From the NCBI GenBank assembly GCA_020628065.1, contig JAHDFR010000044.1, positions 1 to 32,545 of the forward strand: 32,545 bases of DNA, read 5' to 3'. This DNA comes from Acidimicrobiales bacterium (GTDB lineage: Bacteria > Actinomycetota > Acidimicrobiia > Acidimicrobiales > SZUA-35). Below, one piece after another: positions 12,458 to 18,026 of this stretch; within the stretch, counting starts at the first letter, position 1, and every line of letters starts with the position of its first letter. Below the pieces are notes generated by a model. The model was not told the origin of the DNA and made no database searches. It saw only the letters and a list, made by a program, of their open reading frames with translations. Both the position numbers and the translations under genes were made by a program.

Positions 12458-14434
12458 ATGAGTGAATCGCCCACACCCCCGGCAACTGCTGCCGACCCGG
12501 GTCCAGACCATCAGTGGCACAAAATGCTGGAGCCCGACGAGCTTCCGGACGGTCGGGTAACCACAGTTCACATCGGGCACCGCAGCTATGCGGTCACCAA
12601 CAATGAGGGACGCTTCGGCGTGTTGGATAACCGATGCCCTCATCAGGGTGGACCGCTGGGTGAAGGCTCGATCGAGAACGGACATCTGCGGTGTCCATGG
12701 CACGGATACGACTACGACCCGACAACCGGGCAACCACCCCCACCGTTCGACGATGCGCCGGCATGTTTTGCCACCGAGGTTCGCGACGACGGTGTCTACG
12801 CCGCCCTACCCAACGATCCGGCACGAGTGCGCACCACCAGCGACGTGATGGTCGAGACCATGGTCAACTGGGGTGTCGACACCGTCTTCGGGATGGTTGG
12901 GCACTCCAACCTGGGTGTGGCCGACGCCATGCGGGAAGCAGAAGCTCGGGGTGATCTTCGCTACTTCGGCATCCGCCACGAAGGGGCGGCAGCTTTTGCC
13001 GCCGATGCCTACGGCAAACTCACCGGCAGGCCGGGTGCGTGTTTCGCCATAGCCGGGCCGGGATCAACCAACTTGTTGACCGGCCTGTACGACGCCAAAG
13101 TCGATGGAGCGCCGGTCCTCGCCATCAGCGGTCAGGTGCCGTCAAAGAGCCGGGGTAGGGGAGCGTTCCAGGACCTCGACCTCAGCGCCACCTTTAACGA
13201 CGTGGCCGGATACAGCCAGACCCTCTTCCCCGATTCCGATCACGCCGAGATCACCAGCTTGGCCTGCAAGTCGGCCATTGTCGGTCGCCAGGTCGGTCAC
13301 CTGATCGTGCCAGATGATGTTCAGATCATCGCCTCCGATGCTCCGGCCGGCGGCCCGGACGGCCGGGTAGGTGACAGGCGGATCGCTCCACCCGCTGATG
13401 CCGTCGCCTCGGCGGCCCGGCGATTGTCCGAGGCCGAGCGGCCGACGTTCATCGTCGGGGCGGGAGCGCGAGAAGACATGGCCGAGATCATCGCTCTGGC
13501 CGAACATGTCGGTGCCCCTGTAGCCACCACGTTTAAGGCAAAAGGGCAGATCAGTGACACCCACCCATTGGGTTGCGGTGTTCTGGGGCGAAGCGGAACC
13601 CCTATCGCCAGTTGGTTCATGAACGAAAGCGACCTACTGGTTGTGTTCGGTGCGTCGTTCTCCAACCACACCGGCATCAGTGACTACAAACCGATCATTC
13701 AGGTTGACGACGATCCTATGGCGCTGGGTCGTTTCCACCCGGTCGAGATACCCGTTCAGGGCAACGCCGCCGTGGTCGCCGAGTTGTTACGGGCTGCTGT
13801 GCCAACAGAGTCCTGCGGCGATCGACGTCCGGAAGTGGCCGACCGATGGCGGATCTGGCGGGAAGAGAAGGCCAACCGTCGAACCGACGATCAGAGCGGC
13901 GGGCTGTCGGCCGCCGCCATTTTCGAGGCGTTGGGTGAGGCAGTGGAGCCTGACGCCGTCCTGTGTGTTGACGTCGGCAACAACACCTACAGCTTCGGCC
14001 GCTACTTCGAGGTGGCGAACCAGACAGTTCTCATGTCCGGCTACCTGGGATCCATCGGCTTTGGCTTTCCCGCTTCGATGGGGGCCTGGGCCGCCGTTGG
14101 CGACACACGCCAGGTTGTGTCGGTCTCCGGCGACGGAGGCTTTGGCCAATACGCCATGGAGCTCAGCACTGTCTCCAAATACAACATGAACGTGACCCAC
14201 GTCTTGCTCGACAACCGTGAGCTGGGCAAGATCAGCAAAGAGCAACGTTCCGCCGACGTCGATGTGTGGCAAACAAGCCTTCACAACCCGGACTTCGCTG
14301 CCATGGCGGAGCTGTTCGGGGTCGACGCTCACCGGGTCGACGATTCGCAGGCTCTTGAACCGGCCCTACGCTCGGCCCTGGCCCACGAAGGGCCGTCGTT
14401 GGTCGCCATCCGAAGCGATGTTGGCTTGCTTTAG
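12458..14434 (+). CDS. Rieske domain fused to pyruvate-oxidase-like ThDP enzyme
   Basis: A 658-residue fusion. Residues about 18-118 form a Rieske [2Fe-2S] domain with C60-x-H62 (NRCPHQGG) and C79-PW-H82. Residues about 125-655 form a complete thiamine-diphosphate enzyme. It has the catalytic Glu175 in RHEGAAAFAADAYG, a central FAD/nucleotide-type domain, and the ThDP-Mg motif from GDG (558-560) to LDN (584-586). The sequence order and GMVGHSNLGVADAM resemble PoxB/acetolactate-synthase relatives. ThDP oxidases decarboxylate 2-oxo acids and pass electrons onward, so the Rieske centre could be a built-in electron relay. That, and the substrate, are inferred. A monomeric fusion of this kind is unusual. 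Confidence 0.9.
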   Translation: MSESPTPPATAADPGPDHQWHKMLEPDELPDGRVTTVHIGHRSYAVTNNEGRFGVLDNRCPHQGGPLGEGSIENGHLRCPWHGYDYDPTTGQPPPPFDDAPACFATEVRDDGVYAALPNDPARVRTTSDVMVETMVNWGVDTVFGMVGHSNLGVADAMREAEARGDLRYFGIRHEGAAAFAADAYGKLTGRPGACFAIAGPGSTNLLTGLYDAKVDGAPVLAISGQVPSKSRGRGAFQDLDLSATFNDVAGYSQTLFPDSDHAEITSLACKSAIVGRQVGHLIVPDDVQIIASDAPAGGPDGRVGDRRIAPPADAVASAARRLSEAERPTFIVGAGAREDMAEIIALAEHVGAPVATTFKAKGQISDTHPLGCGVLGRSGTPIASWFMNESDLLVVFGASFSNHTGISDYKPIIQVDDDPMALGRFHPVEIPVQGNAAVVAELLRAAVPTESCGDRRPEVADRWRIWREEKANRRTDDQSGGLSAAAIFEALGEAVEPDAVLCVDVGNNTYSFGRYFEVANQTVLMSGYLGSIGFGFPASMGAWAAVGDTRQVVSVSGDGGFGQYAMELSTVSKYNMNVTHVLLDNRELGKISKEQRSADVDVWQTSLHNPDFAAMAELFGVDAHRVDDSQALEPALRSALAHEGPSLVAIRSDVGLL

Positions 14435-14508
14435 GCCCTCAGCGGTCTGTCAGTATTAACTCCAGCGAAACTCGGCGTATTCGCGCCTGCCCGTCCGCTC
14501 GGGGTTTC

Positions 14509-14514
14509 TATACT
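14509..14514 (+). promoter_or_regulatory. -10 box (TATACT) for the thioredoxin lipoprotein gene
   Basis: TATACT, close to the consensus TATAAT, is 7 nt before ATG 14522, giving a leaderless or nearly leaderless mRNA. Confidence 0.5.
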
Positions 14515-14521
14515 TCGAGTC

Positions 14522-15235
14522 ATGTCTGCCGCCCCATCTAGTCGCCTTCGTGCGCTACTGGCCGTTTTGGCTGTGTTGAGCCTCGTTGTTGCCGCCTGCG
14601 GATCATCGGCTGAAGAAGCCGTCACCGTGGAGGATTCTGTAGAAGACGCAGTGGAAGAAGTGGCGGAGGATGATGCCCCGACCTCTGAGGCAGCCGAGAC
14701 AACAGAGGCCACTGAGACCGCTGAAGCTTCTGAAGAACCTGCTTCCGAGCCAACCGAAGATTCAGAAGAAGCTGGAACCACAGAAGAAGACGAAGCTCAG
14801 CCCGAGGCTGGAGAAGTTGAGTCTGAGGAAACGGCGTCGGGACCCGTCATTCCCACCGCCGACGGTGGACAGATCGACTTTGCTTCGCTGCAGGGCCAAG
14901 ACGTCATGTTGTGGTTCTGGGCGCCGTGGTGACCCACTTGCATCCGGGAAGCCCCTGCGGTCGCAGCGGCGCACGAACAATATGGAGACCAGGTCACTTT
15001 CATCGGTATGGCCGGCAGAGATGAGCTTGAGCCGATCGGCCGGTTCATCGCCGAGCGTGGGGTCAGCGGATTCCAGCACACCGTCGACGAAGACGGTTCG
15101 GTGTGGGCCGACTATGGGATACAAAGCCAGCCGGCTTTTGTCTTCATCAACGACGATGGCACCGTTGAAACCAATCAGGGTGCAATGGGTGAGGCCGGCA
15201 TAGCCGAACGGTTGGACGCTTTAATCGCCTCCTAG
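14522..15235 (+). CDS. MPT53/DsbF-like thioredoxin lipoprotein, putative selenoprotein
   Basis: A 237-residue exported protein if the TGA at 14930-14932 is decoded. Residues 1-25 are a lipoprotein signal (LVVAAC, lipidated C26). Residues 27-108 are an acidic Glu/Ala/Thr-rich tether. Residues about 112-237 are a thioredoxin fold whose active site reads WFWAPW-U137-PTC140. This matches the WFWTPWCPFC region of mycobacterial MPT53/DsbF, which handles extracytoplasmic disulfides. The same frame continues to TAG at 15233-15235 with WADYGI and the cis-Pro P204 loop (SQPAFVFI). A SECIS-like hairpin is at 14951-14970. Read as two ORFs, it would be a broken protein. The alternative is a TGC-to-TGA error or a pseudogene. 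Confidence 0.88.
14951..14970 (+). promoter_or_regulatory. SECIS-like hairpin after TGA 14930
   Basis: CTGC (14955-14958) pairs with GCAG (14963-14966) around the loop GGTC. A C-C mismatch follows, then GCC (14951-14953) pairs with GGC (14968-14970). The loop starts 26 nt after the TGA and begins with GG. The GGUC apex is the same tetranucleotide found at the tip of the E. coli fdhF SECIS. Confidence 0.65.
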
Positions 15236-15306
15236 TTGATCGCTTCCCAGCGGCCCGGTCGGCACAACCTATGCCGCTCAATAGCTCATGTTCCCCCGTC
15301 GACCGG

Positions 15307-15312
15307 TAGCCT
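15307..15312 (+). promoter_or_regulatory. -10 box (TAGCCT) for the Ldh_2-type dehydrogenase gene
   Basis: TAGCCT lies 7 nt before ATG 15320; no ribosome binding site is visible. It favours 15320 over the in-frame upstream start at 15236. Confidence 0.4.
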
Positions 15313-15319
15313 TCGGCCC

Positions 15320-16312
15320 ATGTCGATGACAAACGTGCCGGTTGACGAGATCGAGCGGGTTACACAAGCCGCTCTGGTTGCCCATGGCGCCGATCTGACG
15401 GTTGCTGATGCTGTGGCCCGAGCGGTGGCAGTGGCGGAGAGCGTGGGTAACAAGATCTGCGGCCTCTACTACGTGGAAAGCTACTGTCTCCAACTTCAGA
15501 CAGGACGGGTCGATGGCCGGGCCGAACCTCAGGTGACCCGACCAAAACCTGGCGCCGTGGTGGTCGACGGTCGAATGGGGTTTGCTCAACCGGCATTCGA
15601 TGCCGGATTTGCCCAGGCATGCGAGTCGGCCCACTCGAACGGCGTCTGCGGCATGGCAGTGGCACACACCCACACATGTACATCGTTGGGATACTTCACC
15701 GAGCAGTTCGCCAAGGCCGGCCTCCTGGCGATCGGCTCCACCAATGCCAGCCCCCGGGTGGCTCCCCCCGGAGGTCATCGCCCGTTGTTGGGAACCAACC
15801 CGTTCGCCCTGGCGGTACCCGGCGAGAGCGGTGAAGTGGCTTTCCAGTTCGACTTCGCCACCAGTGCAGTAGCGCTCGGCACCATCACCAAAGCAGCAGC
15901 TGCAGGCGAAGAAATTCCTCGCGGCTGGGCGGTGGACGCCGAGGGTGAACCGACGACTGACCCTGCGGCGGCCGTCGCCGGTTCGTTGGCTTCGGCCGCC
16001 GGCTACAAGGGTTTCGGTATCGGTTTGTTGGTCGAGGTGCTTGCCGCCGGCTTGACCGGCACAAACGCCAGCGTCGACGTACCGGCGTTGAAGGCCCCGG
16101 AGGGGCCACCCCACGATCTTGGTCAGTTCTACCTGGTGATCGACCCCGACACCTACGGACGCCACAACCTCAGTCGAATCATCTCGATTCTGGAAGCGGA
16201 GCTGAGCGATCAGCCGAACGCCCGGCTGCCGGGATCAGCTCGCCAGCCGTTGGAAGCCGTGGACGTTGAGTCGGACTTGTGGGACAAGATCACCGGACTT
16301 GCAGGGCGATGA
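15320..16312 (+). CDS. Malate/L-lactate (Ldh_2) family dehydrogenase
   Basis: A 330-residue NAD(P)H-dependent oxidoreductase of the Ldh_2/MDH2 family. This non-Rossmann fold includes malate/L-lactate, ureidoglycolate and delta-1-piperideine-2-carboxylate dehydrogenases. Diagnostic stretches are GFAQPAFDAGF near residue 85, AVAHTHTCTSLGYFTEQFA carrying the catalytic-type His, GTNPFALAVP, and AAGYKGFGIGLLVEVL. The substrate cannot be fixed; a 2-oxo or cyclic imino acid is likely. Length is typical. The gene is convergent with the Rieske-glutamate synthase gene, with only 4 bp between stop codons, and 84 bp separate it from the selenoprotein upstream. Confidence 0.9.
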   Translation: MSMTNVPVDEIERVTQAALVAHGADLTVADAVARAVAVAESVGNKICGLYYVESYCLQLQTGRVDGRAEPQVTRPKPGAVVVDGRMGFAQPAFDAGFAQACESAHSNGVCGMAVAHTHTCTSLGYFTEQFAKAGLLAIGSTNASPRVAPPGGHRPLLGTNPFALAVPGESGEVAFQFDFATSAVALGTITKAAAAGEEIPRGWAVDAEGEPTTDPAAAVAGSLASAAGYKGFGIGLLVEVLAAGLTGTNASVDVPALKAPEGPPHDLGQFYLVIDPDTYGRHNLSRIISILEAELSDQPNARLPGSARQPLEAVDVESDLWDKITGLAGR

Positions 16313-16316
16313 CCAA

Positions 16317-17927
16317 CTAGGGCTGAAGTACCCCTCCATAGCGAATGCCGGTTAGTGCCGCCATGTCCCGGTCGAATGTGGTTAGGTCGTCCTGAGCGAA
16401 ATCCGATAGCGAATGGTGGCCACATGCTCTGGCCATTACCTGCATCAGCTCAGTTGTTGCTTCGAAGAAGCGAGCCAGGCGTTGTGCCGCATCATCCACC
16501 AACAGTCGGGATCGTAGGTCTTTCTTCTGCGTGGCGATTCCCACCGGACAGTTGTCGGTGTTGCAGGCTCGCATACCGATGCAACCGATGGCCTGCATTG
16601 GCGAGTTGGACATCGCCACAGCGTCAGCCCCGAGTGCCAGCGCCTTCACAATGTCCATATGGGTGCGTAGACCGCCGGTGGCCACCAGGGTGACGCCTTC
16701 GGCTCCAGCCGCATCCAGGTGACGACGGGCCCTGGCCAAGGCCGGAATAGTGGGCACCGAGATGTGGTCCCGGAACATGGTGGGAGCAGCACCGGTGCCT
16801 CCACCGCGACCGTCGAGGATGACGTAATCGACACCTACCTCAATGGCGGCGTCAAGATCAGCCTCAATGTGCTGGGCTGAAAGCTTTGCTCCGATGGGTA
16901 TGCCGCCAGAGGCTTCTCTGACCTGCGCCGCCAAGTCCCGGTAGTCGTCCAGGGATGTCAAGTCAGGGAACGTCGGAGGCGAAATGGCGTCCTGGCCTTC
17001 CTCTAAACCGCGAACTTCGGCGATCTTGCCCACAACCTTCTTGCCCGGCAGGTGTCCTCCAGTGCCCGTCTTGGCTCCCTGCCCGAACTTGAAGTGGAAG
17101 GCCTGAACGTCACGTACGTTGTCGATCGACCAGCCGAACTTGCCGGAGGCAAGCTCGTAGAAGTAGCGGGAGTTCTCGGCGTGTTCTTCTGGCAGCATGC
17201 CACCCTCGCCCGAGCAGATGCCGGTGCCGGCCAGTTCGGCTCCACGACTGAGGGACACTTTGGCTTCCTCCGATAGCGCACCGAAACTCATATCGGATAC
17301 GAACATCGGGATGTCGAGATGCAGCGGCTTGTTGGCGTTCGGTCCGATAGTCACATTGGTCGACACCGGGTCGTTATCGAGCAGCGGCCGCCGGGCCAGC
17401 TGAGCGGTCACCAGCTGAATGTCATCCCATGACGGTAACTCCTGGCGGGACACTCCCATTGCCCCGACGGGACCATGATGGCCCAGTTGGCTGAGACCCT
17501 CGGAGGCCAACCGGCGAATGAGACCAACGTGAGGCTCATCGTCGGTGCCGTGGGGATCCTGGTACTGGCCTTGATACGCCGATCGGTCGTAGGGCTGAGG
17601 ATTGTCCTTTACCCAAGCCAACACCTCCTGCTCATCAACCATCAGGGCGTCGTCTTCGATCCAGGAGGCGAACCGATGGAGCCGCTCACTGTTGTTGTAG
17701 GCCGAGATGCCGGTGCTCATCCGGTAGTCCCAGCCGTGGAGGCCGCAGATGAGATCTTCACCGGATACGTGACCGTCCGACATCAGTGCGCCTCGGTGCA
17801 GGCACCGTCCGTAGAGCACTGAGTGATTGTCATCCCAGCGCACGATGACCAAGTCCATGCCGGCCACCTGGGCGCCGACGGGTTGGCGATCAGGGACTTC
17901 ACTCCATGTTGCAACCGTTACCGACAT
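16317..17927 (-). CDS. Rieske domain fused to glutamate-synthase-type FMN domain
   Basis: A 536-residue fusion. The N-terminal Rieske [2Fe-2S] domain (about 5-105) has C42-L-H44 and C61-GL-H64. The rest is the FMN-binding synthase domain of glutamate synthase (PF01645-like), with FVSDMSFGALS, AKLSAQHIEADLD, ILDGRGGGTGAAP and the 3Fe-4S ligands C449-x5-C455-x4-C460. No glutaminase domain is present, so ammonia or an amine, or another substrate, would have to be the nitrogen donor. The Rieske centre may feed electrons to FMN. The start is ATG 17927 with GGAAGGAAG upstream; the frame is open to 18002. Function as a glutamate synthase is unproven for this subgroup. Confidence 0.88.
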   Translation of the reverse strand: MSVTVATWSEVPDRQPVGAQVAGMDLVIVRWDDNHSVLYGRCLHRGALMSDGHVSGEDLICGLHGWDYRMSTGISAYNNSERLHRFASWIEDDALMVDEQEVLAWVKDNPQPYDRSAYQGQYQDPHGTDDEPHVGLIRRLASEGLSQLGHHGPVGAMGVSRQELPSWDDIQLVTAQLARRPLLDNDPVSTNVTIGPNANKPLHLDIPMFVSDMSFGALSEEAKVSLSRGAELAGTGICSGEGGMLPEEHAENSRYFYELASGKFGWSIDNVRDVQAFHFKFGQGAKTGTGGHLPGKKVVGKIAEVRGLEEGQDAISPPTFPDLTSLDDYRDLAAQVREASGGIPIGAKLSAQHIEADLDAAIEVGVDYVILDGRGGGTGAAPTMFRDHISVPTIPALARARRHLDAAGAEGVTLVATGGLRTHMDIVKALALGADAVAMSNSPMQAIGCIGMRACNTDNCPVGIATQKKDLRSRLLVDDAAQRLARFFEATTELMQVMARACGHHSLSDFAQDDLTTFDRDMAALTGIRYGGVLQP

Positions 17928-18026
17928 TGTTGACGACTTCCTTCCGGGCTGGGTGATTGGGTAACCATAGTTCCTGCGAGTTTGAGAGCCTTGGTGAGTC
18001 AAGTGTTGATCAAGGTCCTCGGCCGG

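Follow-up and report, generated by a model that had tools for sequence, protein, structure and literature searches.

The question raised by the locus described here is whether a TGA codon within an otherwise open reading frame is a stop or is translated as selenocysteine (Sec), and what kind of redox protein would result in the latter case. The window, i.e. the whole stretch of DNA analysed, comprises 32,545 nucleotides from a draft genome of an Acidimicrobiales bacterium. On its plus strand a single frame ranging from position 14522 to 15235 starts with ATG at 14522 and contains 237 codons followed by TAG at 15233–15235, its sole in-frame interruption being TGA at 14930–14932, codon 137. Read according to the standard code the protein stops at residue 136 and its redox domain is lost, and the TGA-bearing homologues found across the lineage would be cut likewise. 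We put the probability that the gene product is an exported, lipid-anchored Sec thiol:disulfide oxidoreductase, with the direction of its reaction left open, at about 0.92.

Organisation of the gene

With TGA read as U the frame encodes a thioredoxin-fold lipoprotein which has orthologues at the loci L018 and L019. The predicted signal peptide (14522–14599, plus strand, as are all features given here) ends with the lipobox VAAC, the acceptor cysteine of which is encoded at 14597–14599. It is followed by an acidic tether rich in glutamate, aspartate, alanine, and threonine (14600–14839) and by a thioredoxin-fold domain of the DsbF/MPT53/ResA type (14840–15232). Between the lipobox cysteine and U lie 110 residues, including 35 aspartates or glutamates and no lysine or arginine, which terminate in WFWAPW and the final 30 of which are already part of the domain. 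The TGA occupies position 1 of the active site UPTC, in the context WFWAPW-U-PT-C, the TGC at 14939–14941 encodes the resolving cysteine, and the cis-proline motif reads SQPAF. A first-pass annotation, made from the sequence alone, had described the lipoprotein signal, the acidic tether and the WFWAPW ahead of the TGA as well as PTC and a thioredoxin fold with cis-proline running in frame to the TAG, and all of these were recovered.

The hexamer TATACT at 14509–14514, 7 nucleotides upstream of the ATG, is a possible −10 box and recurs 6 and 7 nucleotides upstream of the ATG in the orthologues L018 and L019. As a distance of 6 to 7 nucleotides in three orthologues provides no room for a leader, this suggests a leaderless transcript. 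The neighbouring genes (window positions 12458–18002) we take to be a fusion of a Rieske protein and a TPP enzyme, a dehydrogenase of the LDH2 type, and a convergent FMN gene which resembles glutamate synthase and includes a Rieske-like portion. The order Rieske/TPP enzyme, thioredoxin, LDH2-type dehydrogenase, FMN enzyme is common to the window genome (G000) and the genomes G031 and G032, and the TGA is kept in the syntenic orthologues of G032 (86% identity) and G031 (83%).

Fold and nearest relatives

With U read as cysteine the domain matches PF00578 (AhpC-TSA) with an E-value of 7.7e-14 and 52.1 bits at a gathering cut-off of 26, and PF08534 (Redoxin) and PF00085 (Thioredoxin) also score above their cut-offs. 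The closest solved relatives by sequence are the Mycobacterium tuberculosis proteins DsbF (1.1e-28) and MPT53 (6.9e-23). A structure predicted for the domain (pLDDT 95.4, pTM 0.91) has these same two proteins as its best matches, DsbF (3ios) with a Z score of 23.8 and an rmsd of 0.9 and MPT53 (1lu4) with a Z score of 22.3 and an rmsd of 1.1. Both the model and the structure matches show one thioredoxin-like domain, which is of DsbE/DsbF type. The likeness to MPT53 and DsbF which had been proposed at first sight thus holds for sequence and fold, and MPT53 reads in the alignment exactly as had been given for the mycobacterial motif, WFWTPWCPFC.

DsbF (Rv1677) and MPT53, also called Mt-DsbE (Rv2878c), share with the window protein the fold, the motif WFWxPW-x-P-x-C, the cis-proline, and, as predicted for the window protein, export. 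They differ from it in having CxxC where the window protein has Sec in place of the first cysteine and hence UxxC, and in that the window protein carries a long acidic lipoprotein tether; in addition, neither VKOR nor DsbD_TM/CcdA was detected in the window genome. The window protein is a Sec homologue of DsbF and is not filed as DsbF. From peroxiredoxins with a TxxC/TxxU motif it is distinguished by the residue three positions before U, which is alanine (A-P-W-U) and not threonine.

No NCBIfam family scored above its cut-off for the window protein. The ResA subfamily NF002854 reached 59.2 bits at a curated cut-off of 170. Two families which by their names are Sec-bearing or Sec-capable thioredoxin-like proteins were likewise far off: NF041054, the ResA-like WAxxUGC family, with 34.3 bits (cut-off 300), and NF041057, the Rcas_1661 thioredoxin-like (seleno)lipoprotein family, also a lipoprotein by name, with 14.5 bits (cut-off 190) and a match confined to residues 16–89, i.e. 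signal and tether.

Conservation of the TGA codon

A homologue was found at E 1e-8 in 38 of the 39 genomes of the family. For comparison 65 places (L017–L081) were fetched, 30 picked automatically and 35 by hand among the matches listed, which yielded 67 homologous frames. The first active-site position is TGA in 61 of these and cysteine in six, and the TGA lies at the identical codon in all 61. The motifs include UPTC, UATC, UTSC, UVRC, UPHC, USTC, UGAC, and others, and 14 homologues contain two TGAs (UPFU, UPHU, UPVU). Among the matches listed, TGA-bearing homologues occur in nine of 11 genera, the window genome has nine homologues, five of them with TGA, and the only internal stops are TGA. 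Two Sec thioredoxin genes, one with UPTC and one with UTTC, were seen close together in the genomes G014 and G015 (L064, L038).

These data bear on the reading of TGA as a true stop, in which case the locus would be a pseudogene or encode a lipoprotein of 136 residues, the similarity downstream being a relic. The standard code does read TGA in this way. Against it stand the confinement of internal stops to TGA among the matches listed, at one and the same codon in all 61 TGA homologues, and the substitution pattern behind it. Between the window gene (L017) and L018 the dN/dS values were 0.10/1.4 for the 33 codons before the TGA, and dN was 0.07 and dS 3.2, near saturation, for the 100 codons after it. 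Thus dN is smaller than dS on both sides, with dS often saturated and some pair ratios not low; L017 and L047 gave a dN of 0.32 and a dS of 0.57 before the TGA. In the homologues the frame stays open beyond the TGA, with dN below dS there, and a check proposed in the first-pass annotation thus turned out in favour of its interpretation.

The closest cysteine homologues in named genomes, taken from the best 80 of 264 relatives, many of them distant, belong to Actinomycetota, read WFWAPWC..C and are at best 46% identical; the scan used a cysteine-codon pattern and could return cysteine homologues only.

The probable SECIS hairpin

Downstream of the TGA a hairpin of 20 nucleotides can be drawn at 14951–14970 (GCC-C-CUGC-GGUC-GCAG-C-GGC). 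It consists of four base pairs, one mismatch, and three further pairs, with a four-nucleotide loop GGUC at 14959–14962 and a minimum free energy of −9.7 kcal/mol. It starts exactly 18 nucleotides after the TGA, as had been read from the letters, and its loop 26 nucleotides after it. The bacterial SECIS model, as given in the cited section of a recent inventory, asks for a loop of 3–9 nucleotides with a G in the first two positions, a stem of 4–16 base pairs, a spacing of 16–37 nucleotides, and a minimum free energy of at most −7.5 kcal/mol (PMC13188914). Loop GGUC, spacing of 26 nucleotides, and −9.7 kcal/mol lie within these bounds (PMC13188914).

Folding of the single sequence revealed no excess stability of the region over shuffled sequences (z +0.78 and +0.28), which speaks for a true stop, and the SECIS assignment therefore rests on the comparison of homologues. 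GGTC stands 26 nucleotides after the TGA in 56 of the 61 TGA homologues, compared to a mean of 7.0 and a maximum of 17 in 2000 randomisations of synonymous codons using the pooled codon usage of the homologue genes. GGTC together with the four inner pairs was observed in 48 of all 61 (randomised mean 2.0, maximum 8); since the homologues share descent, these counts are not independent. This conservation beyond the synonymous expectation argues against a true stop. The remaining 13 comprise five without GGTC (L046, L071, L075, L077, L078), four in which GGTC is present but no more than one inner pair forms (L023, L031, L032, L033), and four with three of the four inner pairs (two genes of L064, one of L038, and L074). 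For L033 an alternative fold, GGAGGCC-AGUUC-GGUCUCC, was noticed by eye.

The stem varies on both sides, as in CUGC/GCAG, CCAC/GUGG, CUAC/GUAG, and GACGC/GCGUC. Covariation was examined in an alignment (A2) of 42 of the 47 distinct GGTC-carrying sequences, in which the loop is conserved by the selection of rows; it omits L023, L031, L032, L033, and L074, whose inner pairs are incomplete, and keeps L064 twice and L038 once. In these 42 sequences 38 cells had changed on both sides as compared to 9.4 after shuffling, a value reached in none of 500 shuffles. When the window gene and its closest kin were left out, 38 cells stood against 10.3, again with none of 500 as high; a reduced alignment (A3) comprises 36 of the 42 sequences. 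Two-sided changes were not spread over more pairs than in the shuffles (5 versus 3.8; 71 of 500), and pairing of columns 25/38 is seen in 11 of the 42 sequences only.

Two covariance models, which score coding conservation as well as structure, were searched. Model R2 comprises 36 homologues and excludes the window gene, its two orthologues, and the three paralogues closest to it. It finds 14930–14977 with 55.0 bits, the next match in the window having 11.3, and gives 50.8–60.6 bits on seven family sequences outside the model. The 60.2 bits of model R1 for the window are by construction, because R1 contains the window's own sequence. A scan of the genome with R1 (150 of 3626 candidates) yielded two more strong places, the paralogues on contigs C107 and C364, both contained in R1, and a weaker match of 26.5 bits at a further TGA homologue on C4. 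On eight Actinomycetota cysteine loci R2 gave one weak match, L117 with 18.4 bits, at the active site. Among the 80 cysteine loci GGTC was found 26 nucleotides after the active-site codon in one, was missing in 76, and had no motif match to be placed by in three; the eight nearest (L117–L124) account for one GGTC.

The element had at first been called similar to that of Escherichia coli fdhF. The apex letters GGUC and the position downstream of the UGA within the coding frame are indeed shared, whereas the GGTC of fdhF follows its TGA by 18 and not by 26 nucleotides, the stem is another one, and fdhF scores a mere 2.3 bits with the SECIS model built here. Comparison supports the Sec codon, the SECIS element, the fold, and the lipobox, and the window gene is very probably a real selenoprotein gene with a real bacterial SECIS.

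Selenocysteine machinery

The window genome is a draft bin of 5.43 Mb in 432 contigs, 95.2% complete with 4.83% contamination. Searches found selA (E 5.2e-117) adjoining selB on contig C89, the joined frame of selB reaching 254.3 bits at a cut-off of 242.25, and selD on C14 (G000:C14:8510-9445, L010; E 1.6e-109). The frame of this selD is itself interrupted by a single TGA, located in the motif GAGUACK, and the gene is thus a Sec-type selD. A second selB-like N-terminal part (G000:C337:21981-22799, L002; E 5.7e-55) was seen at a contig end and is either a second selB or part of the 4.8% contamination of the bin.

The tRNA for Sec (selC) was not found in the bin when the top 150 of 1087 RF01852 candidates were scored, the best match being a tRNA-Ser, nor with ARAGORN on three stretches of C89, on C14, and on part of C337, nor was it found in the sister genome G031. 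ARAGORN detected tRNA-SeC(tca) in 29 of the 39 family genomes, the window genome being counted among the 39. In three of the 29 relatives having selC (G006, G029, G032) the gene lies less than 150 bases from a contig end, and its lack in the window bin is presumably an assembly gap. Of selABCD, named beforehand as the genes whose absence would refute a Sec protein, three are hence in place and selC is seen in relatives. The gene selA occurs in 35 of the 39 genomes. Among the matches listed, three of the four genomes without it (G017, G018, G019, G020) each contain a single homologue that lacks the TGA, and the fourth, G020 (87% complete), has one TGA-bearing homologue. TGA-bearing homologues with no tRNA-Sec detected occur in G000, G001, G015, G020, and G031.

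The failure to see selC in the bin may be counted in favour of a stop and likewise in favour of UGA being decoded as cysteine or tryptophan by another tRNA, for which the homologues with cysteine at the same position could also be quoted. Recoding of this kind is at odds with the presence of selA, selB, and a selD which is itself of the Sec type, with the tRNA-SeC(tca) in 29 of the 39 family genomes, and with a position-specific GGUC hairpin that is missing from nearly all cysteine homologues. We regard it as very improbable, and a true stop, given the homologue data, as slightly more improbable still. For translation as Sec the following course is proposed: Sec-tRNA would be made by SelA, SelD, and tRNA-Sec, SelB would bind the hairpin with the GGUC loop 26 nucleotides after the UGA, and the ribosome would continue by inserting Sec at this codon. 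Once the protein is exported and lipidated, the long acidic tether would hold the domain above the membrane.

Chemistry and redox partners

By homology the window protein would be an exported disulfide oxidoreductase with Sec attacking first and Cys140 resolving. The attacking residue would be the selenocysteine U137 of WFWAPW-U-PT-C, which may attack a substrate disulfide or donate the selenenylsulfide in which it takes part to a thiol of the substrate.

VKOR was found in none of the 39 family genomes at E 1e-5, and DsbD_TM (CcdA/DsbD) in five of the 39 at 1e-6, both searches being positive in control genomes. DsbD_TM was absent at 1e-6 from the window genome and 11 other genomes of its genus, and from the window genome also at E 0.001, so that the membrane partner of DsbF and MPT53, thought to be DsbD/CcdA, has no match in the draft bin. 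Of the exported Sec-based disulfide oxidoreductase originally proposed, Sec is backed by comparison, and the term disulfide oxidoreductase by homology, VKOR and CcdA/DsbD not being detectable in the window genome.

It may be that the selenoprotein acts chiefly as a peroxidase or reductase and not as a disulfide oxidase, an alternative which concerns the direction left open above and no other part of the interpretation. Sec favours peroxide chemistry, the top Pfam match is AhpC-TSA, and with VKOR undetected in the lineage oxidising power might come from peroxide. Moreover, E. coli DsbE is a reductant according to the cited part of the literature (PMC3853704). The same source describes the oxidative folding of hirudin by DsbF and MPT53, the nearest solved relatives (PMC3853704), and this argues against a peroxidase or reductase, as do the absence of the peroxiredoxin motif TxxC/TxxU, with alanine three before U, and the cis-proline retained in the window protein. 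We consider a chiefly peroxidatic or reductive role unlikely, though a serious contender, and from M. tuberculosis DsbE and DsbF oxidation would be slightly favoured over reduction. The undetected VKOR and CcdA turn the redox partner into a concrete question.

A clade with two in-frame TGA codons

The UxxU paralogues comprise one protein of the window genome (G000:C107:8852-9187, L060) and 13 loci in related genomes. In a tree of 76 rows and few columns, from which L066 was omitted as too short, the 14 form one clade (support 100/99). All 14 have arginine at the cis-proline position, which occurs in none of the 62 other rows, and arginine at this position is tied to UxxU. The 46 UxxC rows have proline in 39 and serine in seven cases; six of the latter (L041, L043, L044, L045, L059, L062), of the UTSC/USTC/UGAC type, form one clade, which the tree places next to the UxxU clade, though weakly supported (91/16). 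The 16 CxxC rows have proline in nine and serine in seven cases (L118–L124), all of these seven being Actinomycetota homologues from the scan of named genomes. As serine occurs also in seven CxxC rows, it is not tied to Sec.

The second UGA of the UxxU genes follows the first by 9 nucleotides and is 17 nucleotides away from the loop. As this is still inside the range of 16–37, one SECIS could serve both UGAs. Taken with a second Sec, arginine at the cis-proline position points to a different chemistry.

Relation to known selenoproteins and outlook

In their cited sections, inventories of selenoproteins list Prx-like thiol:disulfide oxidoreductases with PF00578 and UxxC or UxxU (PMC13188914, PMC9312934; 2026, 2022) and further a redoxin family protein and a thiol-disulfide isomerase-like protein, both UxxC (PMC13188914, PMC9312934). 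Prx-like UxxC proteins appear in the cited parts of the Sargasso Sea and GOS papers (PMC1088965, PMC2398784), the latter also describing several UxxU proteins in another Prx-like family (PMC2398784). As selenoprotein-rich groups a further survey names, in the part cited, Deltaproteobacteria, Clostridia, and Synergistetes (PMC5029168). Because it has the PF00578 domain and UxxC, the window protein belongs to the described Prx-like UxxC/UxxU class, with which its genome also shares a UxxU paralogue. It differs from the class as described in belonging to a DsbF-like lipoprotein subgroup which is expanded in one family and which, like its lineage, is not named in the cited portions of these inventories and surveys, and in the associated UxxU clade with arginine at the cis-proline position. 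As far as these sources extend, three things are new: the subgroup of DsbF-like lipoproteins, the expansion of this subgroup within one family, and the UxxU clade with arginine (14 of 14). A literature search on Sec in Acidimicrobiia yielded, judged by title, no paper on the subject.

It is conceivable, though we think it improbable and offer it as speculation, that this lineage performs much of its extracytoplasmic disulfide chemistry by selenium, VKOR being undetected in it and CcdA/DsbD mostly so, with an expanded set of lipid-anchored Sec thioredoxins, a UxxU/arginine branch, and a diselenide that may be fed directly by peroxide or oxygen instead of a membrane quinone enzyme. In our view the UxxU proteins with arginine are the most interesting lead. 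In this family CxxC, UxxC, and UxxU occur as a natural series on the same fold, combined with proline, serine, or arginine at the cis-proline position, and such a series allows one to ask what selenium contributes to extracellular disulfide chemistry.
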